A DNA stretch of 64,000 nucleotides from Alkalidesulfovibrio alkalitolerans DSM 16529 (GTDB lineage Bacteria; Desulfobacterota; Desulfovibrionia; Desulfovibrionales; Desulfovibrionaceae), in assembly GCF_000422245.1 (NCBI RefSeq), contig NZ_ATHI01000005.1:248001-312000 (forward strand). The letters are read 5' to 3'. How positions within the stretch are numbered: the stretch's first letter is position 1; the number at the start of each line of letters is the position of its first letter. The notes below the pieces were generated by a model. It was not told where the DNA came from. It ran no database searches and worked only from the letters and a program-made list of their open reading frames with translations. Position numbers and translations under genes: made by a program. Shown here one piece after another: positions 23,032 to 36,356 of this stretch.

Positions 23032-24158
23032 CAGGTGCTTCCCACCGCCACCACTGTCGTTTTGTTGTGAAACAACGGCACGTTGTCATGACTCCCGATT
23101 TCTCCGAAGGTCAGCGCGCCGAGAATGGGAAGGTCAGGCCCGACCGTCTCGCACAGGGCGCGTATCTCCTCGTCGAACCTGTCTCCCATGAGCATCGCTC
23201 TGGAAATACAGTCGAAAAGCAGCATGAACATCGGCTTCCCGCCGGGAAGGATGGCGGCCCGAGCGGCCTTCCTAGCTGTGTCGATGAGCCCTTCTATGCT
23301 GCATTCCATCACGTAGCCCACGGCCTGCGAGGGTATCTCCGTAATGAAGTCGATGCTGTCGTCGTCGTTGACCCGTAGCGGGTCTCGGATGACGAACTGA
23401 CCGGAAATGTTCGGAAATCCAAGCGGATGTTCCATGGCCGCGTAGGCGAACCGATCCCTTTGGCCCAAGCCCAGACGCCGGGCATACTCCTGAAACGCGG
23501 GCGCTCCGTTGATCTCGTACACCCGCTTGTCCTCGGACCGACTGATGGCCAAGGGGTCTCCCATGGGGGTCCAGCCGTGCCCGATGCCCACGCCGACCTC
23601 AAGCCCGTGCACAAGAGTCACGGCCAGGGCGTCGCGGGACACGCCTTGTTCCGTGAACTGGTGGGTCTGGAAAAACTTGAGGTTGTCGCCCGCGCCGCCG
23701 CCGATGTACTGGAAATCCGGTCCGAGCTGGCTGTAGAGGCCGCGCAGCATCTTCGGCAGATTGGCCTGGAACCCGTCGGGCATGACGATTGCGGTGCCGC
23801 TCGAAAGCCCGCTTTCGCGGGCCGCGCGCCCCGCTTTCTGCCCGATGCCGTAGGGATCGCGGCCAAGATCGTTCTGCAGGGTGGTCACGGCCTCAAAATC
23901 ACCGTTCAGGGCCAAAACGCCCACGCCCTGGGAGTGAAGTCCTGCGGCGGTGATCACACCGCCGCAGCAAAACCCCGCGATGCGCGAGGAACCCACGACG
24001 GCCCGGACCCCGGCGAGAACCTGCTCCGGGTCATAAGCGTCCGTGATGAAGACGAGAGTCAGGACCGGTGGGCCGCAAGCCGCCACGGCGCATTTTGCGG
24101 CCTCACGGCCTGCGGCAAGGGACTCCTCGTGCCCGCTGAACGACGCGCCCGCTTTCAT
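23031..24158 (-). CDS. FIST domain sensory protein
   Basis: A 375-residue protein with FIST N and FIST C domains. The N-terminal half has LTLVFITDAYDPEQVLAGVR and SRIAGFCCGGVITAAG; the middle has QYIGGGAGDNLKFFQTHQF; the C-terminal half ends with FMLLFDCISRAMLMGDRF and LPILGALTFGEIGS. FIST proteins are thought to bind small ligands, possibly amino acids, in signalling. GGGAGGAAGCC precedes the ATG. TGATG overlap with the kinase gene argues for a two-gene sensory unit. The ligand is unknown. Confidence 0.88.
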   Translation of the reverse strand: MKAGASFSGHEESLAAGREAAKCAVAACGPPVLTLVFITDAYDPEQVLAGVRAVVGSSRIAGFCCGGVITAAGLHSQGVGVLALNGDFEAVTTLQNDLGRDPYGIGQKAGRAARESGLSSGTAIVMPDGFQANLPKMLRGLYSQLGPDFQYIGGGAGDNLKFFQTHQFTEQGVSRDALAVTLVHGLEVGVGIGHGWTPMGDPLAISRSEDKRVYEINGAPAFQEYARRLGLGQRDRFAYAAMEHPLGFPNISGQFVIRDPLRVNDDDSIDFITEIPSQAVGYVMECSIEGLIDTARKAARAAILPGGKPMFMLLFDCISRAMLMGDRFDEEIRALCETVGPDLPILGALTFGEIGSHDNVPLFHNKTTVVAVGST

Positions 24159-24243
24159 GGCTTCCTCCCGTCAAACGACGCGGTCGGCGAGCGAAAAGGT
24201 CCGACTCCTTCGATCATCCCGCGACGACGCCGTGGTCTGCTTC

Positions 24244-24272
24244 TGGATAGCCCGAAACGCAAGCCCCTGCAA
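24244..24272 (-). promoter_or_regulatory. Possible promoter of the FIST-kinase operon
   Basis: On the minus strand TTGCAG (24267-24272) is followed after 17 bp by TATCCA (24244-24249), about 86 bp upstream of the FIST start. It matches sigma-70 only moderately. Confidence 0.35.
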
Positions 24273-24309
24273 TTGCGACAGGAACACGCAGAGCGCAAGG
24301 CTCGGCAGG

Positions 24310-24333
24310 GAGGCGCGGGAAAACCCGCGCCTC
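24310..24333 (-). terminator. Hairpin downstream of the M18 aminopeptidase gene
   Basis: GAGGCGCGGG (24310-24319) and CCCGCGCCTC (24324-24333) form a perfect 10-bp stem with an AAAA loop, 15 bp after the aminopeptidase stop. There is no T-run. Confidence 0.45.
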
Positions 24334-24348
24334 GTTGAGAAGAAAGCC

Positions 24349-25743
24349 CTACGACTTCAAAAACGCGGTCAGGGCCAGGGTGGTCGCGTACAAATCGGCC
24401 TTGGAGGCCAGTTCGAAGGGCGCGTGCATGGACAGGATGGGCGGGCCGAAGTCGATGATGTCCATGCCGTAGGCAGCCAGATACTTGGCCACGGTGCCGC
24501 CGCCGCCCTGGTCCACCTTGCCCAGTTCGGCCATCTGCCAGGGGATACCCGCGCCGTCCAGAAGGTTGCGCAGCCAGCCCACGTATTCGGCGTGGGCGTC
24601 GTTGGCCATGTACTTGCCGCCGTGACCCGTGAACTTGCAGAAGGTGGGGCCGTAGCCCAGCAGCGAGGCGTTCAGCCGCTCGTGCAGCTCCTGGTACTCC
24701 GGGTCCACGGCCGCGTGCACGTCGGCCGAGATGGCCTTGGCGTTCATGAGCGCGGTGCGGGCCTTGGTCTTGGGCTCCCAGGCCTCGATGAGCTCGTCGA
24801 GGCAGTATTCGAAGAACATGGACTTGGCGCCGGTGGAGCCGTCCGAGCCGATCTCCTCCTTGTCCCAGAGAATGACGATCTGCGTGTGCTCGGGGGTTTT
24901 GGCGTCCATCAGGGCGCGCAGGGAGGCGAAGCAGCTTATGCGGTCGTCGTGGCCGTAGCCGCCGATGAGCGATCCGTCCAGCCCCACGAGCCGCGCGGGC
25001 CCGGCGGGCACGGCCTGCAACTCGGCGCTGTAGAAGTCGTCCTCCACGATGCCGAAGCGCTCGTTGAGAAGCGTGAGCACGGTCTTCTTGACGCGGCCCT
25101 TGCCGTTCTCGTCGTCCTTCTTCTCGGCCGGGGCGGGCATGTGGCCGAGCACGATGGACAGCTTTTCGGCGTCGAAGGCCTCGGAGAGCTTCTGCTCGGC
25201 CTGCTTGCGGGCCAGATGCGGCAGGAGGTCTGCGATGGTGAAGACGGGATCGCGCGGGTCCTCGCCCAGCACCACCTCCACCACCCGGCCGTCCTTCAGG
25301 GCCACCACACCGTGCAGGGCCAGCGGCCGCGCCAGCCACTGGTACTTGCGGATACCGCCGTAGTAGTGGGTCTTGGCCAGCCCCACCTGCACCTCCTCGA
25401 AGAGCGGGTGCTGCTTGAGGTCGATGCGCGGGGTGTCGCAGTGCGCGCCCGCGAGGCGGAAGCCCTCGGACAGGGGCCGCTTGCCCCGGCGGGCCAGGAG
25501 GATGGTCTTGCCGCGCATGACGCGAAACCACCGGCCGCTCGCGGCGTCCTCGGAGAAGCCGTTCTTTTCGGCCAGGGCGCGGGCGTAGTCCACGGTCTCG
25601 CGCTCGGTCTTGCAGGCCGTGAGGAAGGTCATGTAGTCGTCGGCCAGCTTGTCCATGGCCTTGCGGTGCTTGGGGGTTGCATACACGTCCCACGCCGAGC
25701 GGGGCTTGGATTCGAGTTCGGGGGTCTTTTTCTTGGCGGCCAT
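24349..25743 (-). CDS. M18 family aminopeptidase
   Basis: A 464-residue dinuclear zinc aminopeptidase of family M18 (aspartyl aminopeptidase type). Metal-site motifs are AGAHCDTPRIDLK (about residues 98-110), ILWDKEEIGSDGSTGAKS with the catalytic and metal-binding glutamates (about 310), and ILSMHAPFELASKADLY near the C terminus with the last histidine ligand. An insertion rich in Lys/Asp/Glu (PAEKKDDENGKGRVKK) lies near residue 210. GGAGCG precedes the ATG. It follows selA by 14 nt on the same strand, so it is probably cotranscribed with it. Cytoplasmic peptide turnover is the expected role. Confidence 0.9.
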   Translation of the reverse strand: MAAKKKTPELESKPRSAWDVYATPKHRKAMDKLADDYMTFLTACKTERETVDYARALAEKNGFSEDAASGRWFRVMRGKTILLARRGKRPLSEGFRLAGAHCDTPRIDLKQHPLFEEVQVGLAKTHYYGGIRKYQWLARPLALHGVVALKDGRVVEVVLGEDPRDPVFTIADLLPHLARKQAEQKLSEAFDAEKLSIVLGHMPAPAEKKDDENGKGRVKKTVLTLLNERFGIVEDDFYSAELQAVPAGPARLVGLDGSLIGGYGHDDRISCFASLRALMDAKTPEHTQIVILWDKEEIGSDGSTGAKSMFFEYCLDELIEAWEPKTKARTALMNAKAISADVHAAVDPEYQELHERLNASLLGYGPTFCKFTGHGGKYMANDAHAEYVGWLRNLLDGAGIPWQMAELGKVDQGGGGTVAKYLAAYGMDIIDFGPPILSMHAPFELASKADLYATTLALTAFLKS

Positions 25744-25757
25744 GCGGCGTTCGCTCC

Positions 25758-27188
25758 TTAGGGATTGTCCGGATTAGGGGTCGCGGCGGCGAAGCCCTGG
25801 GCAAGGGCTTCGGCGACCAGGGGAAATTCGTCGCGGCGAAGGGTTCTGGGATCGAGCATGAGCGCGCCGCGCTCCACGCGACCCACGAGCGGCGGGTCCG
25901 TGGCCAGGAGCGCCTGACGCAGGTTCTCCGCGCGCACGGGCGCGGCCGGGGTCAGCTCCACCAGGCTCGTGGGCAGGTCGAACTCGGGGAACGAGCCGCC
26001 GCCCACGCGCGAGACGCCCGGCGCGACGCGCACCCCGGCCAGCCCGGCAAGCGCCGTGCGCAGCCGCGCGGCCAGGGCGCGGGCCTTGGCGCGCAGTTCG
26101 TTTGGCGCGGCCGTGATCATGGCCAGGGTCGGTATCTCGGCCCGGGCGCGCTCGGGATCGAGGTAAAGGCGCAGCGTGGCCTCCAGCGCGGCCAGGGTCA
26201 TCTTGTCGATGCGCAGGGCACGGTTGAGTGGGTTCTTCTTGATCTTGTCGATCCATTCCGCCCGGCCCACGATGATTCCGGCCTGCGGCCCGCCCAGAAC
26301 CTTGTCGCCCGAAAACGTCACGATGTCCGCGCCCGAGGCCACGGTCCGCTGCACCGTGGGCTCCTCCAGGGACAGGCCCGCGGCCTGGCGGAAATCGAAG
26401 AAGCTGCCGCTGCCCAGGTCCTCGACCACGGGGATGCCGCGCGCGCGGCCGAGCGACACGAGGTCCTCCAGCGGAACCTCCTTGGTGAAGCCGATGATGC
26501 GGAAATTCGAGCAATGCACCTTGAGCAGCATGCCCGTGTTCTCGGTGATGGCCTGCTCGTAATCGCGCAGGTGGGTGCGGTTGGTGGCTCCCACCTCGAC
26601 CAGTTCGGCCCCGGAGCGGCGCATCACGTCCGGGATGCGGAAGGAGCCGCCGATCTCCACGAGCTGCCCGCGCGAGACCACGACCTCGCGGCCCTTGGCC
26701 AGGGTGTCCAGGACGATGAGCACGGCCGCGGCGTTGTTGTTGACCACCAGGGCGGCCTCGGCCCCGGTGATGCGGCAGATGAGCTTCTCCACGTGCGCGT
26801 AGCGGCTGCCGCGCGCGCCCGTGGAAAGGTCGAACTCCAGGTTCGAGTAGTTGCGGCAGGCGTCCGTCACGGCCCGCGTCGCGGCCTCGGCCAGGCAGGA
26901 GCGGCCGAGGTTGGTGTGGATGACCACGCCCGTGGCGTTCAGCACGCGGCGAAAATGCGGCCTCGCCCCCCTGCGCACGAAGGCGAGCAGACGCGGCAAA
27001 AGGCGCTCCATAGACAGGTCGGATTCGTCGCGCACCGCCCCGGCCCTGATCTCCTCGCGCAAGAGGTCGAGAAAGGCGTCGGCCAAGTCGCGCACCAGGG
27101 CGCGCGGCAGGGCGGACAACTCGGGATCGTCCGCGAGGTGGCGCAAAAGGCGGTCCATGGACGGCAGGTGTCGGAAGAGCGCGGACAC
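25758..27188 (-). CDS. selA: L-seryl-tRNA(Sec) selenium transferase
   Basis: A 476-residue PLP enzyme that converts seryl-tRNA(Sec) to selenocysteyl-tRNA(Sec) using selenophosphate. The N-terminal helical domain contains LVRDLADAFLDLLREEIRAG; the fold-type I core has NATGVVIHTNLGRS, EAALVVNNNAAAVLIVL and the PLP-lysine motif VTFSGDKVLGGPQAG (Lys near residue 296). Length matches the bacterial family. Presence of selA implies selenoproteins in this genome, such as formate dehydrogenase. No selB, selD or tRNA-Sec gene was found in this window. It sits between folC and the aminopeptidase gene with short gaps. Confidence 0.95.
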   Translation of the reverse strand: MSALFRHLPSMDRLLRHLADDPELSALPRALVRDLADAFLDLLREEIRAGAVRDESDLSMERLLPRLLAFVRRGARPHFRRVLNATGVVIHTNLGRSCLAEAATRAVTDACRNYSNLEFDLSTGARGSRYAHVEKLICRITGAEAALVVNNNAAAVLIVLDTLAKGREVVVSRGQLVEIGGSFRIPDVMRRSGAELVEVGATNRTHLRDYEQAITENTGMLLKVHCSNFRIIGFTKEVPLEDLVSLGRARGIPVVEDLGSGSFFDFRQAAGLSLEEPTVQRTVASGADIVTFSGDKVLGGPQAGIIVGRAEWIDKIKKNPLNRALRIDKMTLAALEATLRLYLDPERARAEIPTLAMITAAPNELRAKARALAARLRTALAGLAGVRVAPGVSRVGGGSFPEFDLPTSLVELTPAAPVRAENLRQALLATDPPLVGRVERGALMLDPRTLRRDEFPLVAEALAQGFAAATPNPDNP

Positions 27189-27203
27189 GCAGGCTCCTTT
27201 GGC

Positions 27204-28475
27204 TCAGTCGTGCGGGGGAAGCAACAGCCGAGGGTGTTTTGTAAAGAACTCCCCCAGCAAATACAAGGAGCCGCAGACCAGCACCAGCCCGTGTTCGGCG
27301 GTCAGGGCCAGGGCCGTGTCCAGCGAGGCCACGGGCACGGCGCGCGGCCCGATGATCCGGGCCACGGCCGCGTGGTCGCTCTCGCGGCCGGAAACGTTCA
27401 GGCGCGGCACCACGACCGGCCCCTCGCTGAGCGCGAGCACCAACGGCGCGAGGCCTTGCACGTCCTTGTCCGCGAAGCAGGCGAAGACCACGGCCCCTGG
27501 CCGCTGGCCCGACTCTTCAAGGGCCGCGCCCAGGGCCGCGAGTCCCGGCGCGTTGTGCGCGCCGTCGAGGATGAGGGCCGCATGTCCCTCGCCAGCGGGC
27601 ACGCGCTGCATGCGGCCCGGCAAAAAGGCCGTGGCCAGGGCGCGGGCCTCGGCCTTAGGGTCGGACAAAACGCCCAAGGGCCCGGCCGCGCGGCGGAAGG
27701 CGGCCAGGGCCAGGGCCACGTTCTGGCGCTGGTGCGGCCCGTCAAGGCCAAGCGGCGTGCCCGGCGGCAATGGCTCGACGACCTCCAAAGGACAGCCGAG
27801 GAGCCGCGCTTGGTTTTCGAGTTCGCGCATGGCCTCGGGCTCTTGCCGCGCGCAGAGCACCGGCAGGCCCGGCCGCATGGCCCCGGCCTTGTCGCGGGCG
27901 ATGCTCGCGATGTCGGGCCCGAGCACCTTCATGTGGTCCAGGCCGATGGAAGTGAAGACGAGCAGATCGCGTGAAAGCGCCGTGACCGCGTCGAAGCGGC
28001 CGCCCAGGCCCGCCTCCAGCACGGCCGCGCGCACCGGCTCGCTGCCGGGGTCGTCCGGAGTGGCGGGAGCGGCGGGAGCGGCGGCGAAGGCGGAAAGCGC
28101 CAGGGCGGTCAGGAATTCGAAATATGTGAGGCCAAGCTCCCCGGCCGGTTCGGCGATGCGGTTGGCGGCCGCGAGGAACGCATCCTCCGGGAGGGGACGG
28201 CCGTCGCGCTTGACGCGCTCGCGCACGTCGCAAAAGTGCGGCGAGGCGTAAAGCCCGGTCTCGACGCCGTGGGCGCGCAAGAGTGCGTCGAGAAAGGCGC
28301 AGGTGGAACCCTTGCCGTTGGTGCCGACCACGTGCAAGGCGTAAAACGGCGGCCGCGAGAGGCCCGTCCGTTCGAGAAAACGCTCCATGCGGCCGAGCGA
28401 AAGATCCATGTGGAACAGGCCCAGGGCGTCCAGATGGGACAGCAGTGCGTCGTATGTGGCGAAGCGCTTTGGCAT
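27204..28475 (-). CDS. folC: Folylpolyglutamate synthase / dihydrofolate synthase
   Basis: A 423-residue Mur-ligase-fold enzyme that adds glutamate to folates and, in many bacteria, also makes dihydrofolate. Motifs: ATP loop VVGTNGKGSTCAFLDALL (about 45-60), SPHFCDVRERVKRDG, ALTAFSRD-type metal loop rendered VFTSIGLDHMKVLG, and LILDGAHNAPGLAAL. ATG 28475 begins MPKRFATYDALLSHL, the usual FolC start. A TTG 42 nt further upstream is in frame but adds residues without conservation. selA follows after 15 nt, so folC-selA-pepM18 may be one transcript. Confidence 0.93.
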   Translation of the reverse strand: MPKRFATYDALLSHLDALGLFHMDLSLGRMERFLERTGLSRPPFYALHVVGTNGKGSTCAFLDALLRAHGVETGLYASPHFCDVRERVKRDGRPLPEDAFLAAANRIAEPAGELGLTYFEFLTALALSAFAAAPAAPATPDDPGSEPVRAAVLEAGLGGRFDAVTALSRDLLVFTSIGLDHMKVLGPDIASIARDKAGAMRPGLPVLCARQEPEAMRELENQARLLGCPLEVVEPLPPGTPLGLDGPHQRQNVALALAAFRRAAGPLGVLSDPKAEARALATAFLPGRMQRVPAGEGHAALILDGAHNAPGLAALGAALEESGQRPGAVVFACFADKDVQGLAPLVLALSEGPVVVPRLNVSGRESDHAAVARIIGPRAVPVASLDTALALTAEHGLVLVCGSLYLLGEFFTKHPRLLLPPHD

Positions 28476-28519
28476 GGCGTCTTTGGGCGCTCTACATGCG
28501 GGCGAGGGCGGAAGCAAGG

Positions 28520-28548
28520 CCCGCCCGGCCTGTGGCGGGCCGGGCGGG
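28520..28548 (-). terminator. Terminator of perR-rbr
   Basis: CCCGCCCGGCC (28520-28530) and GGCCGGGCGGG (28538-28548) form a perfect 11-bp stem with a 7-nt loop, 30 bp after the rubrerythrin stop and before folC. The T-run is poor. Confidence 0.6.
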
Positions 28549-28577
28549 TGGAGGCGTGAGGCGCTTGGAGGCGTGTT

Positions 28578-29153
28578 CTACCAGTTGGTGGCCAAAAGCT
28601 CGAAGTGGGCGCGCGGATGGATGCAGGCCGGACACAGATCCGGGGCCTCGGGACCGTCGTGAACGAAGCCGCAGTTGCGGCAGCGCCACGTGGTCGCGAC
28701 CTCGCGCTTGAAGACGCGGCCTTCCTTGATGTTCGCGGCGAAATCGAGGAAGCGGCGCTCGTGGAACTTCTCAGCCACGGCGATGTTCATGAAAACCTTG
28801 GCGATTTCGTCGAAGCCTTCCTCCTGGGCGATCTTTGCGAAGCCGGGGTACATCTCTGAATACTCGTGATGCTCGCCCTCGGCCGAAGCGATGAGGTTGG
28901 AGCGCGTGTCGGCGATGATTCCGGCCGGAAACGCGCCGCTGATCTCAACTTCGCCGCCCTCCAGGAACTTGAAGAGGCGCTTGGCGTGCTCCTTCTCCTG
29001 CTCGGCCGTCTCGACGAAGATGTCAGCGATCTGCACGAAACCTTCTCCCTTGGCCTTGCTGCCGAAGAAGGTGTAGCGGTTGCGCGCCTGGGACTCGCCC
29101 GCGAAGGCGGTCAGAAGGTTGCGTTCGGTGCGGGTGTTCTTCAGGGATTTCAT
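28578..29153 (-). CDS. rbr: Rubrerythrin
   Basis: A 191-residue rubrerythrin that reduces hydrogen peroxide in anaerobes. The diiron site residues are in place: E20, E53, H56, E94, E97, E128 and H131. The C-terminal rubredoxin-like iron site has C158, C161, C174 and C177. AAAGGAGAGCACAC precedes the ATG. It is the second gene of an operon with a PerR-type repressor, 12 nt downstream. From memory, D. vulgaris has a rubredoxin-like gene (rdl) between the two; it is absent here. Confidence 0.97.
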   Translation of the reverse strand: MKSLKNTRTERNLLTAFAGESQARNRYTFFGSKAKGEGFVQIADIFVETAEQEKEHAKRLFKFLEGGEVEISGAFPAGIIADTRSNLIASAEGEHHEYSEMYPGFAKIAQEEGFDEIAKVFMNIAVAEKFHERRFLDFAANIKEGRVFKREVATTWRCRNCGFVHDGPEAPDLCPACIHPRAHFELLATNW

Positions 29154-29165
29154 GTGTGCTCTCCT

Positions 29166-29672
29166 TTAGCGTGGTTGTATGTGTCCCCCGGCGCGGCGGC
29201 ACGGGGAGGGGCTGGCTTCGGGTCCTGCGGCGCAGGCGCGGCATGTCCCGGTGAGCTTGACTTGGACGTGCTCGGCGCGAAAGCCTGTGCCCGCGTCGGC
29301 CAGGCCCGCGATGTCGAACCCCTCGGGCAGATCGACATCCTCGATGCGGCCGCAGACGCGGCACACGAGGTGCGCGTGCGGCTCGTCCGTGCGGCCGTCG
29401 AAGCGGCGCTCGTGGCCGAGGTCGAGTTCCTGGATCACCCCGGCCTGGATCAGGCTGTTCAGGGTGTTGTAGACCGTGGCCTTGCTCATCCAGGGCAGTT
29501 CCAGGGCCGCGCGGGCATGCACCGATTCGGCGCTCGGATGCGAGGAGTCATCGGCCAGGAGGCGCACGATGGCCTCTCGCTGCGGCGTGACGCGAAGCCC
29601 GCTTCGCCGCATGCACTCGATCATCCGGCCTGCCCGGCCCTGAGTGGTGTTTTCGTGCGTGGTCTGGTTCAT
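29166..29672 (-). CDS. perR: Fur-family peroxide-responsive repressor PerR
   Basis: A 168-residue Fur-family repressor. The DNA-binding winged helix contains RVTPQREAIVRLLADD and MSKATVYNTLNSLIQAG. The metal region is PHAHLVCRVCG, with a second CxxC-type pair near the end (CRAC). Pairing with rubrerythrin favours PerR over Fur. Two starts are possible: ATG 29696 lies inside the -10 hexamer of the promoter described here, so ATG 29672 (MNQTTHEN), preceded by GAG about 8 nt upstream, is chosen. The promoter contains a palindrome, so the gene probably represses itself and rbr. Confidence 0.9.
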   Translation of the reverse strand: MNQTTHENTTQGRAGRMIECMRRSGLRVTPQREAIVRLLADDSSHPSAESVHARAALELPWMSKATVYNTLNSLIQAGVIQELDLGHERRFDGRTDEPHAHLVCRVCGRIEDVDLPEGFDIAGLADAGTGFRAEHVQVKLTGTCRACAAGPEASPSPCRRAGGHIQPR

Positions 29673-29694
29673 GTCGTGCTCATTTGTTGGATTC

Positions 29695-29722
29695 ATTCTA
29701 AAATAAGAATGATTCTTGTCAA
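29695..29722 (-). promoter_or_regulatory. perR-rbr promoter with overlapping PerR box
   Basis: On the minus strand TTGACA (29717-29722), a 16-bp spacer and TAGAAT (29695-29700) form a near-consensus promoter. The perfect palindrome AAGAATGATTCTT (29705-29717, plus strand) fills the spacer, as expected for an autoregulatory Fur/PerR operator that blocks RNA polymerase. Confidence 0.75.
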
Positions 29723-29785
29723 CAACTTTTTGAAAAAAGAGCGGCTTTTTTCTTCCGGAGCGTTTTAGGCAAGGCATCATCGCGC

Positions 29786-29801
29786 AATTTATGAATAAAT
29801 T
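29786..29801. repeat. AT-rich palindrome upstream of perR
   Basis: AATTTAT (29786-29792) and ATAAATT (29795-29801) are perfect inverted arms separated by GA. The 420-bp stretch between perR and the tRNA gene holds no convincing gene. It contains this palindrome and a small stem GAAAAAAG/CTTTTTTC near 29732-29752, which might be a weak terminator. Confidence 0.35.
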
Positions 29802-30093
29802 TCCGCACATCCAAAAAAGTGAGAAAGGTCGAAAAAAGGCGGCTCGTCCCGCGAACGATGGAGGTGCTTCCTTGGAGGATCGGTCGTGGTCCTGGGTAAA
29901 GGCTCGTCCGTGCATATTGGTGACGAGGCGCGCGGCATTCCCGCCTTGACCGCCCTCCCCCGCCCGGTTTATGGATTTTCCCCGCTTTCGCCCTGGGGCG
30001 GAATCGGTGTAGCATGCCCCATCGGCCTTCCCGAGGCGGCAAAATGGCACCCCAGGCCGCTCCGGTCGGGAATGCCGCCGCGCCAAACCATAC

Positions 30094-30170
30094 GCGCCCG
30101 TAGCTCAGGTGGATAGAGCAGGAGCCTTCTAAGCTCTTGGTCGGGGGTTCGAATCCTCCCGGGCGCGCCA
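30094..30170 (+). tRNA. tRNA-Arg (anticodon UCU)
   Basis: A complete 77-nt cloverleaf with encoded CCA. The acceptor stem GCGCCCG (30094-30100) pairs with CGGGCGC (30160-30166), the discriminator is G and CCA follows. The D arm is GCTC/GAGC. The anticodon arm GGAGC-CTTCTAA-GCTCT gives anticodon TCT, reading AGA/AGG. The T arm has GGTTCGAATCC-type sequence. A strong terminator follows after 9 bp. Confidence 0.97.
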
Positions 30171-30179
30171 CGCCATCAC

Positions 30180-30225
30180 AATGCAGGCGTTTCTGTGAAC
30201 ACGGAAACGCCTGCATTTATTTTTT
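30180..30225 (+). terminator. Terminator of the tRNA-Arg gene
   Basis: AATGCAGGCGTTTC (30180-30193) and GAAACGCCTGCATT (30204-30217) form a perfect 14-bp stem followed by TATTTTTT. Confidence 0.9.
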
Positions 30226-30283
30226 ACGCTGCCAAATGGGCAGCTTCATTACCAGAAGAATACATCACGTTCCTCAAATTTCT

Positions 30284-30311
30284 TTGACGAAGACAGTTAT
30301 TAATGTATAAT
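30284..30311 (+). promoter_or_regulatory. Promoter of the radical SAM island
   Basis: TTGACG (30284-30289) and a perfect TATAAT (30306-30311) with a 16-bp spacer, in an AT-rich stretch. Transcription should begin near 30318, giving a leader of about 60 nt. Confidence 0.75.
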
Positions 30312-30342
30312 ATCTTACAATAATAGTGCCTATATACGCACC

Positions 30343-30367
30343 ATAAAGCATGTTCATCATGCTTTAT
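30343..30367 (+). promoter_or_regulatory. Hairpin in the 5'UTR of the radical SAM gene
   Basis: ATAAAGCATG (30343-30352) and CATGCTTTAT (30358-30367) form a perfect 10-bp stem with loop TTCAT. It ends 2-3 nt before the ribosome site GGGAG of the radical SAM gene and could control its translation or mRNA stability, or serve as a protein operator. Confidence 0.55.
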
Positions 30368-30380
30368 ATGGGAGAAAATC

Positions 30381-31706
30381 ATGTTCCCATTCAGCCATGA
30401 ACAATTTCTACCATGCACACTTCAAGAACTCATAGAAGTCCGCGAGAGACTCCCATTTGCCGATGTCCACGCCCCGCTCCATCTTACAGACGATATGGAT
30501 GCATATGAATTACACTCGGGATTTCTCGTCGAAGGAAGCCAGGGTGTCTTCTGCGTTTCGTCTTTGCGTCTGCTCCGGGAAGCAAGTTCTGGAAAAAGCG
30601 CGCATGAAATCGCACGATCCCCAGACGACCTCACAGAGCTCGAACACCTCCATAGATACGGCGTCATCAGAACCGGAAACGGTGGCAGCGGAAAATTGAT
30701 CACCCATGAGGCTGGGAACGAGTTTTCACGGTTGTATGAGAATCGGAACCTGACGTGGTTCTCCTACATTCCGCAGAAGATCGAGATGGATATCACCACA
30801 AAGTGCAACCTGCGATGCATTCATTGCTCCCGGGAGGCGTCTCCGGAGGCAAGGCAGGGAAGCATGACGCTTGAGGACTACATCCGGATTATCGAACAAG
30901 CTGCGGAAATCGGCGTACCGAACTTGACGGTCATGGGAGGAGAACCCACCACCCATCCCGAATTCATCGAACTGGCCCTGATCGCGCGAGTGGCCGGGGT
31001 CAAGAGCCTTTCGACGAGCACGAACGGCTGGCTGGTCGACGCCGCGCTGGCGCACAAGATGGCCCGTCTTTTCGGATCGGTCCAGGTCAGCCTGCACGGC
31101 GCGAAAAGCGCGACGCACGACGCCATTGTCGGTCGCAAAGGCGCATTCGAGCGCGCGGTGCGCGCGCTTTCGCTGTTGCGCGACGAGGGCGTGGCCTCGC
31201 TGAACATCTCCTTCTCGGTCATGCGACAAAACGCGACCGAGATTTCGGCCATGGTCGAACTGGCCAAGGATCTGGGCATAACCGAACTGCGCTTCCTGGT
31301 GCTCACCCCCGAGGGTAGGGCCCTGAACCTTTCGACCTGGGGCGAGGACGAAAAACGGGAAATCGCCGATCAGCTTGGCGGCTTGCGCGTGGCCTTCGGC
31401 AACTGCGTGGACATAAGCGCGGGCGGTTTCCCGCCCTACGACGGCATATCGAAGACAGCCGCGTTCTACGGCTGCCCGGCGGGAAGAAACCTGCTCTACA
31501 TAGACGCGCAAGGCCGCGCCAAGCCTTGCCATTGCACCGGCATCGACCTCGGCGACGTTCGCGAATCCCCCTTGCTTGATCTGTGGCACAGCAAACCAAT
31601 GCAATCCTTGCGTTCCAGACTCGATTGCTGCGAATACAGTCAGGTCTGCGCTGGGGGCTGTCTTGGCAATGAGGAATGGCTGCAAAAATTCTTTCACCAT
31701 GCATGA
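30381..31706 (+). CDS. SPASM-type radical SAM peptide-modifying enzyme
   Basis: A 441-residue protein. Residues 45-105 (SQGVFCVSSLRLLREASSGK to HRYGVI) look like a PqqD/RRE winged helix, which binds leader peptides in RiPP pathways. The radical SAM core has CNLRCIHC (Cys142, 146, 149) and TVMGGEPTTHPEF, the GGEP strand. The C-terminal SPASM-like region has C365, C383, C385 and C416, C417, C423, C427, enough for extra 4Fe-4S clusters. GGGAG precedes the ATG. The next gene, 10 nt downstream, encodes a cysteine-repeat protein and is the obvious candidate substrate. Its 5' half is visibly AT-richer than the neighbours, suggesting transfer. The reaction is unknown. Confidence 0.85.
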   Translation: MFPFSHEQFLPCTLQELIEVRERLPFADVHAPLHLTDDMDAYELHSGFLVEGSQGVFCVSSLRLLREASSGKSAHEIARSPDDLTELEHLHRYGVIRTGNGGSGKLITHEAGNEFSRLYENRNLTWFSYIPQKIEMDITTKCNLRCIHCSREASPEARQGSMTLEDYIRIIEQAAEIGVPNLTVMGGEPTTHPEFIELALIARVAGVKSLSTSTNGWLVDAALAHKMARLFGSVQVSLHGAKSATHDAIVGRKGAFERAVRALSLLRDEGVASLNISFSVMRQNATEISAMVELAKDLGITELRFLVLTPEGRALNLSTWGEDEKREIADQLGGLRVAFGNCVDISAGGFPPYDGISKTAAFYGCPAGRNLLYIDAQGRAKPCHCTGIDLGDVRESPLLDLWHSKPMQSLRSRLDCCEYSQVCAGGCLGNEEWLQKFFHHA

Positions 31707-31716
31707 GGAGGACAAG

Positions 31717-32016
31717 ATGGACGCAAGAATGGAAATGGCGGTTCGCGACATCATTCGCGAGGAGTTCACGCGCCTGCGCAACTCGCTGACAGGCGTGCCG
31801 GGCGGCCTGGCATCGGACTGCGGATGCTTCTACGACCAGGGATGTTGTCGCGACCAAGGGTGTTGCAACGACAAAGGATGCTGTGGGCAAAAGAACCTCG
31901 GCAAGCTCGACGAACTCACATCGGGCCGGTTCGACGTTCTGCAGGAATTCATTCTCTCCAACAAGGAACCGATCATCAAGTTTTTCAAGGAGCGCGGCGT
32001 AGAGGTCAATCTTTAG
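31717..32016 (+). CDS. Cysteine-repeat small protein, candidate radical SAM substrate
   Basis: A 99-residue protein. Residues 1-25 form a charged amphipathic helix (MDARMEMAVRDIIREEFTRL). Residues 35-57 hold eight cysteines, including three hexapeptide repeats D-Q/K-G-C-C-x (40-45, 46-51, 52-57). A helical C-terminal part follows (GRFDVLQEFILSNKEP). The repeats use different codons, so the motif appears kept at protein level rather than recently duplicated. ATG 31717 has GAGGAG 6 nt upstream; an ATG at 31699 lacks a site. Placement directly after a SPASM radical SAM gene suggests a precursor peptide or a metal-binding partner. The cysteines lie mid-protein, unlike many classical precursors, so a scaffold role is also possible. 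Confidence 0.7.
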   Translation: MDARMEMAVRDIIREEFTRLRNSLTGVPGGLASDCGCFYDQGCCRDQGCCNDKGCCGQKNLGKLDELTSGRFDVLQEFILSNKEPIIKFFKERGVEVNL

Positions 32017-32140
32017 CGCAATCCCCACGACATCCGACAGCCCATGTTCTGCCGGGAGCGAAGCGTCCGCGAACCTGTTGCGCGGTCCACGCGCCATATT
32101 TTTGCGCCCACACGGGCGAACCAGGAACGCGGTGTGAAAA

Positions 32141-32180
32141 AACGGCCGCCCTGGATTACTCCGGGGCGGCCGTGTGTTTT
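32141..32180 (+). terminator. Terminator after the radical SAM/cysteine-repeat pair
   Basis: ACGGCCGCCC and GGGCGGCCGT form a 10-bp stem around a 14-nt loop, followed by GTGTTTTCTC. It lies between the cysteine-repeat gene and the convergent RDD gene, so it may serve both. Confidence 0.65.
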
Positions 32181-32189
32181 CTCTCCAGA

Positions 32190-32231
32190 GATTTCGCGCC
32201 TGGGATTTCGCGCCTGGGATTTCGCGCCTGG
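32190..32231. repeat. Three tandem 14-bp repeats
   Basis: GATTTCGCGCCTGG is repeated three times without change (32190-32203, 32204-32217, 32218-32231), just after the terminator and 58 bp beyond the RDD gene stop. Non-coding; it may be a variable-number repeat or a protein binding array. Confidence 0.85.
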
Positions 32232-32289
32232 GCGGCACTCGCGGGCTCATGTCCCGCCTTGATGCGTGTGGCGCGTGTGCAGCGGTCTG

Positions 32290-32781
32290 CTAGTCGGGCC
32301 TGCGCACCACCAGGGTCCCGGCGATGTAGTCGTGCAGGGCCTGCTTTCTGGGCGTGAAGGCGGCCATGAGGTAGCCCAGCAGGAAAATGAGGCCGGAAAG
32401 CAGCTTGCCGAAGTAGCGCAGCGTGGCGCGGCCAAAGCTCAGCCGCCGCCCGTCCATGTCCGTGACCACGATGCCCATCATCCGCTTGCCGAAGGTGGCC
32501 TGGTGGGCCGACGACTCCTGCAGGGCATAGTACCCCCAGGAAAGGCACAAGGCGATGATCATGCCCATGGTGTCGTCACGCGTCAGTTCCTCGCCGCTGA
32601 CGTTCTCCACGCCGCCGAAGTCGAGGAAATAGGTCAGCGCGAACGTCACGACGAACAAAATTCCCTGGTCCGCGATGTAGGCCCCCAGGCGCTGCATGAA
32701 ACTCGCGTATCCGCCGTTGCGCCCGGCTTCCGCCGCGCGCCGCGCCTTCAATTCTTCCCAGCCGTCGTCGTTCCTGTCCAT
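32290..32781 (-). CDS. RDD family membrane protein
   Basis: A 163-residue integral membrane protein. The RDD signature begins at YASFMQRLGAYIADQGILF, where the usual Arg and Asp lie in the first membrane helix. Later come FGKRMMGIVVTDMDGRRLSF and LRYFGKLLSGLIFLLGYLMAAF, then RKQALHDYIAGTLVVRR, the typical RDD end. The N terminus (MDRNDDGWEELKARRAAEAG) is charged and cytoplasmic. GGGAGG lies 5 nt before ATG 32781, which decides the start over longer upstream frames. RDD proteins are of mostly unknown, possibly transport, function. It diverges from the glycosyltransferase gene. Confidence 0.85.
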   Translation of the reverse strand: MDRNDDGWEELKARRAAEAGRNGGYASFMQRLGAYIADQGILFVVTFALTYFLDFGGVENVSGEELTRDDTMGMIIALCLSWGYYALQESSAHQATFGKRMMGIVVTDMDGRRLSFGRATLRYFGKLLSGLIFLLGYLMAAFTPRKQALHDYIAGTLVVRRPD

Positions 32782-33007
32782 CGAGCCTCCCGTGGGCGGC
32801 CAAAGCCTCGCGGCCCGGCCCTGATCCGTCAGGATATAGGCCCCAAGCCCATGCGAACGCAAGCCCCGCGCGGCCCGAAACCCACGATTCGCCGCTTTGC
32901 GGCCACGGCGGCCCGTCTCCCCGCACACTCGCGGCGGAAGGCCGTTTTCAGCGTCATGAGCACGGCGGGCATTGCCAAAACGCCCGGCTGCCGCCATAGT
33001 GCGGCCC

Positions 33008-34123
33008 ATGCGCGCCATACAGGTGGTCAACGTCCGGTTCTTCAACGCCACGGCCTGGTACGGCCTGTACCTGACCCGCCTCATGCGCGAGGCCGGGCAC
33101 CAGGCGCTGGTCATCGGGCTGCCGGATACCGAAAGCTTCGAGGTGGCGCGCGAATGGGGCATCGAGCCCGTGCCCATGGACATGAACACCACCCACCCCG
33201 GCCGCCTCCTGGCCCTGTACCGCGAGATGGCCGACCTCGTACGCGATTTCCGACCGCACGTGGTCAACTGCCATCGCGGCGAATCCTTCCTGCTCTGGGG
33301 GCTCCTTAAGCGCGCCACGCGCTCCTTCGCCCTGGTGCGCACGCGCGGCGACCAGCGCCTGCCCAGGAACAACCTGCCCAACCGCTGGCTGCACCGCGAT
33401 GTGGCCGACGCCGTGGTGGCCACCAACTCCTCCATGGCCCGGCACTTCATCCAGGCCATGGGCCTGCCCTCGGAAAAGGTCTGGACCATCCTGGGCGGAG
33501 TGGACACCGGCCGCTTCCGCTTCGACCCCGAGGGCCGCGCGCGCGTGCGCGCCGAGTTCGGCTTCGCGCCCGAGGACGTGGTGGTGGGCATCGTGGGCCG
33601 ATTCGACCCGGTCAAGGGGCAGGAGGATCTAATCCGCGCGGCCGGGGAGGCCAGACGCCTGGGCGGCTGCAGCTTCAAGCTCTTCTTCGTGGGCTTCGAT
33701 TCCATCACCGGCAGCGGCGAGATCAAGGAATGGTGCCGCCGCGAAGGCGTGGACGACATCGCCCGCCTTTCGGGGGCGCGAAAGGACGTGGCCGCCTGCC
33801 TCTCGGCCCTGGATATGGGCGTGTGCGCCTCGCGCTACTCCGAGACCATCGCCCGCGCGCCCATGGAGATCATGGCCTGCGGCAGGCCGCTTATCGCCAC
33901 GCGGGTGGGCGTGCTGCCCGACCTGGTGCCGCCCTCGGCCCTGGCCGCGCCATCCGACCCCGAAGACCTCGGCCGCCTGTTGCACAAGGCCCTGACCCGG
34001 CCCGACTGGCTGAAGGCCGTGCAGGTGGACGAGCAGCGCATCATGGCCCAGTATTCGGGCAAGGATTTCCTCAACCAGACCCTGAGCCTCTACCAGGGAC
34101 TGACATCCGGACTGCACGCCTGA
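33008..34123 (+). CDS. GT-B fold glycosyltransferase (family 4-like)
   Basis: A 371-residue glycosyltransferase. The N-terminal domain starts AIQVVNVRFFNATAWYGLYL; the C-terminal nucleotide-sugar domain has VGIVGRFDPVKGQEDLIRA and the E-x7-E-like ETIARAPMEIMACGRPLIATRVG, then DLVPPSALAAPSDPEDLG. These fit family 4 enzymes that build lipopolysaccharide core or other surface glycans from sugar nucleotides on the cytoplasmic membrane face. ATG 33008 is chosen over an upstream alternative start because homology begins at MRAIQVV. A second glycosyltransferase gene starts 8 nt after its stop, so the two form an operon. Confidence 0.88.
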   Translation: MRAIQVVNVRFFNATAWYGLYLTRLMREAGHQALVIGLPDTESFEVAREWGIEPVPMDMNTTHPGRLLALYREMADLVRDFRPHVVNCHRGESFLLWGLLKRATRSFALVRTRGDQRLPRNNLPNRWLHRDVADAVVATNSSMARHFIQAMGLPSEKVWTILGGVDTGRFRFDPEGRARVRAEFGFAPEDVVVGIVGRFDPVKGQEDLIRAAGEARRLGGCSFKLFFVGFDSITGSGEIKEWCRREGVDDIARLSGARKDVAACLSALDMGVCASRYSETIARAPMEIMACGRPLIATRVGVLPDLVPPSALAAPSDPEDLGRLLHKALTRPDWLKAVQVDEQRIMAQYSGKDFLNQTLSLYQGLTSGLHA

Positions 34124-34131
34124 GAGCACGC

Positions 34132-34914
34132 ATGCGAGAACCCGTCACCGCCGTGATCCTGACCTTCAACGGCCAGCGCCTGCTGCGCGAATGCCTGCAA
34201 AGCCTCGACTTCTGCGACGAGATCGTGGTCGTGGACTCGGGCAGCACGGACGAGACCCTGGCCATCGCCGCCGAGTTCGGCGCGCGCGTGCTGCACCGCG
34301 CCTGGGAAGGCACGATCCCGCAGTTCCGCTTTGCCTTTACGCACGTGGCCACGCCCTGGGTGGTGACCCTGGACCAGGACGAATACTGCTCGCCGGAACT
34401 GCGGCAAGCCATCGTCCAGGCGCTCGAAAACCCCGGCAGCGCGTGCGGCTTCTACGTCAAGCGGCGCTCGTTCTACCTCGACCGCTTCCTCAAACATTCG
34501 GGCTGGTATCCGGACTGGCTGTTCAGGGTCTTCCGCATGGACGGCTTCGAGCTCAAGGGCACGCTGCCGCACGAGGAGTTCCGGCCCAAGGGCGAGGCGG
34601 GCCGCATCCACGAGGACATCGTCCACTATCCTTATGAGGATCTGGCCGAGCACCTGCGCAAGATCGCGGCCTACACCAAGACCTCGGCCGGGATCATGTA
34701 CGCGCGTGGCAAGCGCTGCGGCGTGGCCGGGGCCTGCCTGCGGGCGCTTGGCCGCTTCGTGAAGAAGTACGTGTTCAAGCTCGGCTTCCTCGACGGCCGC
34801 GCGGGCTTCGTCCTGGCGCTGTACGACATGCTCTACGTCTTCCAGAAGTACCTGCTCCTGGAGGAGATGCGGCTGCGCGACGAGAAGACGGGCAAGCCCT
34901 CTTCCCGCTCCTGA
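34132..34914 (+). CDS. Family 2 glycosyltransferase, LPS core type
   Basis: A 260-residue GT-A glycosyltransferase resembling WaaE/KdtX-type LPS core glucosyltransferases. Motifs are VTAVILTFNGQRLLRECLQS, EIVVVDSGSTDETLAIA, and the metal-binding LDQDE near residue 83. The middle has WYPDWLFRVFRMDG and IHEDIVHYPYEDLAEHLRKI, common to that group. A basic, hydrophobic C terminus (FVKKYVFKLGFLDG onwards) probably touches the membrane. Start ATG 34132 lies 8 nt after the preceding gene. Sugar donor and acceptor cannot be determined from the sequence. Confidence 0.88.
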   Translation: MREPVTAVILTFNGQRLLRECLQSLDFCDEIVVVDSGSTDETLAIAAEFGARVLHRAWEGTIPQFRFAFTHVATPWVVTLDQDEYCSPELRQAIVQALENPGSACGFYVKRRSFYLDRFLKHSGWYPDWLFRVFRMDGFELKGTLPHEEFRPKGEAGRIHEDIVHYPYEDLAEHLRKIAAYTKTSAGIMYARGKRCGVAGACLRALGRFVKKYVFKLGFLDGRAGFVLALYDMLYVFQKYLLLEEMRLRDEKTGKPSSRS

Positions 34915-35007
34915 CCCATTCCTGAGCCGTCCCTCGCATCGACCGCCTTCCCAGGCTGCCACGGAAAAACGGCGCGGCCATCGGGCGCGTTTTGAGCAAA
35001 ATCGAAG

Positions 35008-35048
35008 CCCCTCCCTGGCGTCCGGACCGCCCGGACGCAAGGGAGGGG
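35008..35048. terminator. Bidirectional hairpin between convergent genes
   Basis: CCCCTCCCT (35008-35016) and AGGGAGGGG (35040-35048) enclose an inner GCGTCCGG/CCGGACGC stem. It separates the glycosyltransferase operon from the convergent 97-residue gene. Confidence 0.6.
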
Positions 35049-35134
35049 TGTGACGGTGACTCAGGCAACCGTGTCGCTCGGCGGCCCAAGACTTGCTGGC
35101 TGTATTCCCGTGCGGCGCGCCTCGCGGCGGTCCG

Positions 35135-35428
35135 CTAGGCTTTGCGCCCGAACAGGCCGCCCTTGAGCGTGTGGGCGGCAAGGATGCTCTTTTGCGATTC
35201 GTAGAAAGGATCGCTCTTGCCGCTGAACGGGTCCGTGTTCATGAGGTCGAGCGTGCCCGAGACCAGGGCCGCGCCGAACGAGGCCTTGTCCACCGGCGCA
35301 TGCGAGAACGCCCCGCGCCCGCCCATGTAGTCGAGTGTCTTGGTCACCACGGCCGCGCCGAACGTCTGCCTGCCCACGGGAGCGAAGCCCCCGAAACCAC
35401 CCATCGCGCCCATTTTCTCGATGCCCAT
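35135..35428 (-). CDS. Small Gly/Ala/Phe-rich hypothetical protein
   Basis: A 97-residue protein with N terminus MGIEKMGAMGGFGGFAPVGR. Two similar segments appear: QTFGAAVVTKTLDYM and ASFGAALVSGTLDLMN, an internal repeat of about 30 residues, each ending in a short helix. The C terminus is basic (KSILAAHTLKGGLFGRKA). GGAGG lies 7 nt before ATG 35428, so a longer frame start at 35467 is rejected. No signal peptide or cysteine is present. I do not recognise a family; the internal repeat and Gly-rich start suggest a small structural or peptide-like protein. Confidence 0.65.
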   Translation of the reverse strand: MGIEKMGAMGGFGGFAPVGRQTFGAAVVTKTLDYMGGRGAFSHAPVDKASFGAALVSGTLDLMNTDPFSGKSDPFYESQKSILAAHTLKGGLFGRKA

Positions 35429-35549
35429 GACGAGCCTCCGGCAAAAGCGTAAATTATCCCTTTTCATGCCTATCGGCCGAAAAGGCGCAATTCTTTAGGC
35501 GCTCGAAAAAATTTCCGGCCGAGGGACAGCCGACGCCTTAAGGCGCCTG

Positions 35550-36356
35550 TCACGCGCGGCCGCTTCTGACCACCTCAAGGGCGCGCTCCACGTCCCATTC
35601 GTCGTGCACCACGCGCGAGAGCGCCTTGACCAGGAGTTCCGGCCGGTCGTGCTGAAAGACGTTGCGGCCGATGGACAGCCCCGCGCATCCGGCCAGGCAG
35701 GCGTCGTGCGCCATGGTCAAAAGCGCCGCGTCGTCGTCCAGGCGCGGGCCGCCCGCGATGACCACCGGCACGCAGCAGGCCTCCACCACGCGGGCGAAGC
35801 TCTCCATGTCGCCGGTATAGGCGCACTTGACCACGTCGGCCCCGAGTTCCACGGCCACGCGCGCGGCGTGGGCCACCACGGCCGGGTCGTACTCGTTCAC
35901 GATGTGCGGCCCGCGCGCGTACATCATGGCCAACACCGGCATGCCCCACTCGGCCGCGCGCGAGCAGACCATCCCGAGGTCGGCCAGCATGTCGCGCTCG
36001 CGCTCGTCGCCCAGGTTCACGTGCACCGAGACGCCGTCCGCGCCAAGCTTGATGGCGTCCTCCACGCTGGCCACGAGCGTCTTCGCGCCGGGAAAGGGAG
36101 ACAGGGAGGTGGAAGCCGAGAGGTGGACGATGAGTCCGATGTCCTTGCCGTAGCCGCGATGGGTGCAGCGAGGCATGCCCTTGTGCATGAGCACGGCGTT
36201 GGCCCCGCCTTCGGCCACGCGATCCACCGAGCCCTTGAAGTCGTGCATGCCCTTGATGGGCCCCACGGTCACGCCGTGGTCCATGGGCACGATCACCGTG
36301 CGCCGCGTGTTGCGATTGAGAATGCGTTCGAGGCGGACGGCCTTTCCGAGAAGCAT
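35550..36356 (-). CDS. Class I aldolase, ADTH synthase (aromatic amino acid pathway)
   Basis: A 268-residue DhnA/FbaB-type class I aldolase. Motifs: TVIVPMDHGVTVGPIKGM, CTHRGYGKDIGLIVHLSAST, AVELGADVVKCAYTGD with the Schiff-base lysine near residue 184, and PVVIAGGPR. Homologues in methanogens and Desulfovibrio act as 2-amino-3,7-dideoxy-D-threo-hept-6-ulosonate synthase, the first step of the alternative route to 3-dehydroquinate, rather than in glycolysis; a class II fba is also present here. A Phe-rich leader and terminator lie upstream, which supports the aromatic role. The usual partner, 3-dehydroquinate synthase II, is not in this window. Confidence 0.85.
   Translation of the reverse strand: MLLGKAVRLERILNRNTRRTVIVPMDHGVTVGPIKGMHDFKGSVDRVAEGGANAVLMHKGMPRCTHRGYGKDIGLIVHLSASTSLSPFPGAKTLVASVEDAIKLGADGVSVHVNLGDERERDMLADLGMVCSRAAEWGMPVLAMMYARGPHIVNEYDPAVVAHAARVAVELGADVVKCAYTGDMESFARVVEACCVPVVIAGGPRLDDDAALLTMAHDACLAGCAGLSIGRNVFQHDRPELLVKALSRVVHDEWDVERALEVVRSGRA

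Follow-up and report, generated by a model that had tools for sequence, protein, structure and literature searches.

The freyrasin maturase PapB is reported to act where Cys and Asp are separated by zero to six residues (PMC9413430). Within a single small subunit, QhpD as published forms three thioethers from Cys to Asp or Glu (PMC7876137). The domain order given for SkfB is ribosomally synthesised and post-translationally modified peptide (RiPP) recognition element (RRE), radical S-adenosylmethionine (SAM) domain and Twitch (PMC6231123). The radical SAM 'Cluster 59', listed as uncharacterised in its source, has one radical SAM gene, a peptide with Asp-Cys up to six times and a recombinase gene (PMC9062424). 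Bufferins are described as metal-chelating modified ribosomal products of MNIO enzymes (PMC12452194). The locus treated here lies in a stretch of 64,000 nucleotides (the window) of Alkalidesulfovibrio alkalitolerans DSM 16529 (contig NZ_ATHI01000005.1, positions 248,001 to 312,000, forward strand). It comprises a radical SAM/SPASM enzyme of 441 residues (P0002, 30381-31706, + strand) and a Cys-repeat protein of 99 residues, the proposed substrate (P0001, 31717-32016, + strand). A gap of 10 nt separates the stop of the enzyme from the start of the small protein, which places a small Cys-rich open reading frame (ORF) next to a maturase gene, the two-gene arrangement of a RiPP locus. Both positions and the gap are those given in a preliminary description of this DNA. 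The pair is read as an enzyme with a dedicated substrate and thioether chemistry. This reading rests on architecture, from which we infer substrate, bond type and fate of the product, and is held with about even confidence.

The small protein has eight cysteines, at residues 35, 37, 43, 44, 49, 50, 55 and 56. All are contained in a Cys block of residues 34-56 (D34 to C56; 31816-31884, + strand) that carries three D-Q/K-G-C-C repeats, with units beginning at D40, D46 and D52. Elsewhere in the window the motif D-x-G-C-C is absent (six frames; three matches, all in the small protein). Shuffling the protein 200,000 times produced one or more D[QKNE]GCC in 240 cases and two or more in none. The repeats are real, beyond chance, and the eight cysteines and three hexapeptides of the preliminary description agree with the residue positions. 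Its remark that codons differ between repeats while the motif is kept as protein was also borne out: compared pairwise, the three copies differ six times in the codons for D, G, C and C, each time synonymously and in the third position. Codon 2 shows one Q-to-K change, and codon 6 varies freely (R, N, G). Selection at the protein level would yield such synonymous-only differences, found here in one genome, in which rates are not measurable.

Spacings from Cys to downstream Asp are CX2D three times (C37-D40, C43-D46, C49-D52), CXD twice (C44-D46, C50-D52) and CX4D once (C35-D40). CX3D does not occur among them. Asp residues near the block are D40, D46 and D52 inside the repeats and D34 just ahead, four local Asp against eight Cys. 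CX3D is the freyrasin pattern and no rule for ranthipeptides at large. The preliminary description had set the spacing against a freyrasin-type reaction, an argument that lapses with the range of separations reported for PapB (PMC9413430). The Cys block lies in the middle of the protein and a tail of 43 residues follows it, unlike the usual leader-then-core order. The predicted fold consists of a helix (3-25), an irregular Cys block (34-56) and helices (61-91), at low confidence (mean pLDDT, the predicted local distance difference test, 53.0). This fold and that of the enzyme N-terminus given below were both predicted from single sequences, without an alignment. The small-protein model has no Foldseek match and the protein no PDB sequence match, each at E up to 10. 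Pfam, PHROGs and PADLOC likewise have no family that matches it. The one NCBIfam match is adenylate kinase (15.8 bits, cut-off 373). A literature search of openly licensed papers found no description of the D-x-G-C-C motif strings.

The enzyme matches Pfam Radical_SAM PF04055 at residues 138-277 (85.7 bits, cut-off 29.5) and Pfam SPASM at residues 365-418 (35.4 bits, cut-off 21.5), both above cut-off. The motif CX3CX2C is formed by C142, C146 and C149, invariant in an alignment of the enzyme with 16 relatives. The alignment covers the loci with + strand ORFs, 18 in all, except L003 and the incomplete L025; the 12 whose ORFs lie on the - strand, among them the best match L013, were compared pairwise only. 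Seven SPASM columns have an invariant or nearly invariant Cys across the 17 sequences, and the enzyme keeps five of them (365, 383, 417, 423, 427). Its best PDB sequence matches are SkfB (E 2e-18, residues 127-414) and then PqqE (1.6e-16). The SPASM-like radical SAM assignment of the preliminary description thus stands; of the database search that it proposed for both proteins, the enzyme yielded these families and the small protein neither a Pfam family nor a PDB match. NCBIfam gives 84 families, of which the best 25 are all below their cut-offs. At the top of these 25 are AhbD (125.5 bits, cut-off 500), MftC (112.1, 265), NirJ2 (110.1, 500), TIGR04053 and StsB (98.9, 625); the SkfB model scores 77.2 bits, below its cut-off of 300. 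Identity as a defence system was considered and rejected, viperin-type radical SAM models being the only ones matched (best 59.3 bits).

The enzyme N-terminus was described earlier as PqqD/RRE-like. That assignment finds no support in sequence profiles and is weakly supported by predicted fold and structural comparison. A body of results weighs against an RRE-bearing, thioether-forming enzyme. Neither Pfam nor NCBIfam has a family that matches residues 1-130 at E up to 10. In a genome search with PF05402 (PqqD) the single match of the same genome lies on another contig and not in the enzyme; 64 of the 120 class genomes searched have a match, this genome included. With a profile built from 30 PqqD domains, 48 of 100 shuffles score as well as the enzyme N-terminus. 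The AlphaFold2 model of the N-terminus has strands at 32-36, 39-44, 47-52 and 55-59 and helices at 62-68, 74-77 and 81-92. Its confidence is low (mean pLDDT 50.3, pTM, the predicted template modelling score, 0.47; the other four models have pLDDT 33.7-35.9). The modelled order is four strands and then three helices against the three strands of an RRE, which is defined as three strands followed by three helices (PMC12710340). Foldseek returns no match below E 0.2 for this model (best E 0.21, first rows unrelated). Further structural rows, given below, have low Z values. In the SPASM domain, position 414 is Leu, the last Cys column is absent, and extra cysteines stand at 385 and 416. CteB is not among the 20 PDB matches of the enzyme at E up to 0.01, and by these sequence matches the enzyme appears closer to SkfB and PqqE than to this ranthipeptide maturase.

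On the other side stands a second structural comparison, in which 997 chains were aligned, 59 of them at Z 2 or more, and the best 35 entries considered. For enzyme residues ~36-101, RiPP proteins make up 15 of the best 16 of these 35 entries, seven distinct proteins, at Z 3.2-4.1. They are MccB (seven rows), McbBCD (two), TbiB1 (two) and PbtF, CteB (5why, which we take to be CteB), a lasso B1 protein and ThcOx (one each); the odd row is a designed protein. The aligned parts of MccB, McbBCD and ThcOx are presumably RRE-type domains. These rows count as weak support, because Z values this low can reflect a common arrangement. PqqD, SkfB and SuiB are not among the best 35 entries, an absence that is uninformative. 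Foldseek rows for chains of CteB, MccB and TbiB1 have E 1.0-2.3; the method is reported to give many false positives for short domains (PMC12710340). RREs are also said in print to escape single profiles, one Pfam model missing whole RRE classes (PMC7470986). An RRE-like fold ahead of the radical SAM domain, at residues 36-101 (30486-30683, + strand), is therefore possible on the low-confidence model and the structural rows, with weak support.

Orthologs of either gene were sought widely. The small protein was found in its own genome only among 99 relatives (E 0.001), and nothing credible besides its own genome turned up in 348 class and 395 phylum genomes. It is absent from the plasmids, phages and viral contigs searched, the last also by DNA pattern. 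Eleven weak loci were dismissed as chance matches of Cys-rich translations. Ten matches at E 0.01 in the 348 class genomes comprised the own genome and nine others at 17.5-19.8 bits, with internal stops in five of the nine; three matches at E 0.001 in the 395 phylum genomes included two from other genomes, both with internal stops and lying across longer ORFs of other frames. Over six frames, a single D-x-G-C-C occurs in one of the 11 loci (L012, with stops near on either side) and two occur in none. The enzyme was found in its own genome only among 297 class genomes (1e-40). Of the 395 phylum genomes, 106 have a match at 1e-25, this genome among them; the best of the others has 6.4e-38 and 31% identity. 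The 29 other matches listed as loci all start at residue 111 or beyond and so cover only the shared enzyme core. Four lower-ranking matches start earlier (58, 94, 97 and 102), three of them with an internal stop. Six enzyme peptide patterns in 84,980 species genomes gave one distant relative, 24% identical, a search that diverged orthologs would escape. The viral contigs searched contain no enzyme match. Matches in plasmids (451 records) and phages (30 records) are all below 60% identity.

The surroundings of 30 weaker radical SAM relatives (L003, L013-L041) have no D-x-G-C-C in any frame, within flanks of about 1.5 kb or less except for L003, short enough for a more distant partner to be missed. 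Nor does the motif occur in 15 regions around PqqD matches or in three sibling regions. Credible orthologs of either gene are thus absent from the collections searched. This weighs against an enzyme with a dedicated substrate and does not refute co-occurrence of the pair, a check that the preliminary description had proposed. BLAST places radical SAM ORFs in three of the 15 PqqD-match regions. A radical SAM ORF of 537 residues (L105, 2568-4427, genome G153) holds a PqqD match (22.3 bits, below cut-off) and is preceded by a small ORF whose end carries Pro, Gly and Cys; this may be a further RiPP system in the class. Another possible RiPP system (L103, 2873-4417, genome G116) has a five-Cys ORF of 40 residues downstream of a radical SAM ORF, with a PqqD match between them.

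The two genes look like their own transcription unit, because a promoter-like site lies 5' and terminator-like sites lie on both sides. A sigma-70-like site, TTGACG-16-TATAAT, with 11 of 12 consensus bases, is at 30284-30311 (+ strand, consensus match only); the start that the preliminary description chose for the locus, 30284, is its first base. Two overlapping promoter-like sites were found against 0.7 expected from shuffles. Upstream, a tRNA-Arg gene (anticodon tct; 30094-30170, + strand; ARAGORN, Rfam tRNA 65.4 bits) is followed at its 3' side by a terminator-like stem of 17 pairs with a T run (30180-30217, + strand). A second such stem, of 14 pairs with a T run, lies downstream of the pair (32142-32173, + strand). 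Both stems come from a consensus site scan, which found six terminator-like sites in 29900-32400 against 2.6 expected from shuffles. The order tRNA terminator, promoter, two genes, terminator suggests one transcription unit, as far as consensus matches go. In the 5' leader, 15 nt upstream of the enzyme ATG, stands a perfect inverted repeat, AAAGCATG-TTCAT-CATGCTTT (8 + 8 with a loop of 5 nt; 30345-30365, + strand), a single copy in the window. Leader stretches with this repeat have folding z of -3.23 and -3.14 and beat 200 of 200 and 199 of 200 shuffles. The repeat may be a candidate hairpin acting in translation or an operator.

In the proposed mechanism the enzyme would hold the small protein through the N-terminal RRE-like domain. 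A 5'-deoxyadenosyl radical would be produced from SAM at the CX3CX2C cluster. Cys-to-Asp thioethers, probably off the alpha carbon, would be formed in the D-x-G-C-C block. The CX2D, CXD and CX4D pairs are possible targets, because PapB links Cys and Asp at separations of zero to six. Three or four bonds would be possible (at the three repeat Asp and D34), provided that no other Asp takes part and that each accepts one bond. Five or four thiols would then stay free, because there are fewer Asp than Cys at one bond per Asp; these could bind metal. The product is more likely an intracellular modified protein than a cleaved and exported peptide, because neither exporter nor leader protease is among the scanned neighbours (detailed below) and the Cys block is central with its 43-residue tail. 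By analogy with QhpC, a modified subunit, a small modified protein remaining in the cell is the more likely fate. A more specific proposal, itself rather unlikely, is a new class in which one Cys of each D-x-G-C-C pair is bonded to a nearby Asp and the other is free. Such a product would be a rigid, thioether-locked row of thiols within a small protein of the cell interior, with a metal or redox role, made by an enzyme with a divergent RRE and an altered auxiliary-cluster site.

If correct, the thioether proposal would give a minimal enzyme-substrate pair whose bond pattern is countable by mass, at 2 Da and one alkylatable thiol per bond. Paired-Cys repeats would join the substrates of thioether-forming radical SAM enzymes, and the product may remain a protein. 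The proposal would also show that systems of this kind can lack relatives in species-level genome collections and evade mining with PqqD profiles.

The same pair could instead carry out another radical chemistry on the small protein, such as Cys-to-alpha-carbon bonds of the sactionine type, C-C bonds, epimers or other products. This comes first among the rival explanations, and its chance is judged small. The sactisynthase SkfB is the top PDB sequence match and NCBIfam lists the sactipeptide maturase model StsB (98.9 bits, cut-off 625), a similarity that is, however, below the family cut-offs and confined to the shared radical SAM/SPASM part; Asp beside Cys is kept in every repeat, which a sactionine would presumably not need. 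Eight Cys in 22 residues, six of them paired, with Asp and Gly between and a helix-loop-helix context in the low-confidence model, would also suit a protein that binds metal, either like a metallothionein or as a scaffold for a cluster, and that the enzyme requires or loads while forming no cross-links. To this a distinctly low probability is assigned: the small protein is without a profiled or PDB relative, and we know of no RRE-bearing radical SAM enzyme that merely loads a cluster. The preliminary description had offered cluster loading on a scaffold as an alternative, and nothing found speaks specifically for it.

That chance or joint transfer brought the two genes together, with the enzyme acting on another target such as a tetrapyrrole or cofactor, is quite improbable. 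The top NCBIfam matches would fit such a target (the heme enzyme AhbD, mycofactocin MftC and NirJ2, all far below cut-off), and evidence of co-occurrence elsewhere is absent from the collections searched. Two relative-less genes 10 nt apart, with promoter-like and terminator-like sites of their own, speak against chance, as does the possible RRE fold of the low-confidence model. A decayed or non-functional remnant is barely credible. The enzyme ends shortly past the last shared Cys, without the seventh SPASM Cys, and no relatives were found; yet both frames are open, the radical SAM motif is intact, the repeats differ synonymously, and promoter-like and terminator-like sites are present.

The pair occupies a slot between the tRNA-Arg gene and a gene for an RDD protein. 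Neighbours were scanned over 23034-36356. Upstream, on the - strand, are genes for a FUR-family regulator, rubrerythrin, FolC, SelA, an M18 aminopeptidase and a FIST-domain protein. Downstream are genes for the RDD protein, two glycosyltransferases and a DhnA-type aldolase family enzyme; a 110-residue ORF adjoining the last (35135-35467, - strand) has no Pfam match at E 0.001. No RiPP exporter or dedicated leader protease is encoded among these neighbours. The congener G001 keeps rubrerythrin, the FUR region and tRNA-Arg. Its RDD gene lies 4.3 kb past tRNA-Arg, against 2.1 kb here, the interval holding a PIN-domain gene and further ORFs. The PIN-domain ORF (37.1 bits, cut-off 23.6) stands directly after tRNA-Arg in the G001 slot (L055, 4477-5137) and follows a small antitoxin-like ORF (DUF6364 match below cut-off). 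The slot accepts different small modules, because behind this tRNA-Arg gene G001 has PIN-domain and antitoxin-like ORFs. G002 has its tRNA-Arg and RDD matches on separate contigs and is uninformative for the slot.

The G + C content at third codon positions (GC3) is 0.68 in the enzyme gene and 0.73 in the small-protein gene. ORFs listed for 16397-39320 (threshold 0.70, overlapping ORFs included) have 0.72-0.94, and SelA, FolC, rubrerythrin, the M18 gene and the first glycosyltransferase have 0.85-0.94. Lower GC3 and a variable slot are consistent with gain by transfer and are no proof of it. Among the repeat families listed for 29000-34000 there is no direct repeat of the tRNA end that could serve as an island attachment repeat. 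Within the enzyme gene, GC3 is 0.53 in codons 1-130 (30381-30770) and 0.75 after them (30771-31703), as if the N-terminal part were of other origin or less ameliorated.

Compared with the described systems, the locus resembles freyrasin PapA/PapB in pairing a radical SAM maturase with a peptide of repeated Cys...Asp, at spacings that PapB is reported to tolerate. It differs in its motif, D-x-G-C-C with the Cys in pairs and CX3D absent, in a ratio of two Cys to each local Asp, and in placing the block in the middle of a 99-residue protein; the comparison is drawn from the published description of PapB. QhpC/QhpD, also compared by description, share a radical SAM enzyme and, as proposed for this locus, several thioethers within one small protein that stays a protein, a subunit in the case of QhpC. 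Unlike this locus, QhpC as described has a 28-residue leader removed by QhpE, and partner subunits; no such gene is among the neighbours scanned here. Its product may resemble bufferins in chelating a metal, through the proposed free thiols; bufferins are made by another enzyme family, MNIO. SkfB is the best PDB sequence match, with its published order of RRE, radical SAM and Twitch. The RRE is established in SkfB and possible only in the present enzyme, which scores below the SkfB NCBIfam cut-off; past the last shared helix we read C416 and C417 in the enzyme against C-x-C in SkfB. Ranthipeptide maturases are reported to resemble QhpD more than known sactionine synthases (PMC11002830). The top PDB match, SkfB, is a sactionine synthase and leaves the bond type between sactionine and thioether to Asp. 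'Cluster 59', compared by its published description, has a recombinase gene as third member and, with one radical SAM gene and a peptide of Asp-Cys repeats, is the nearest published case found.

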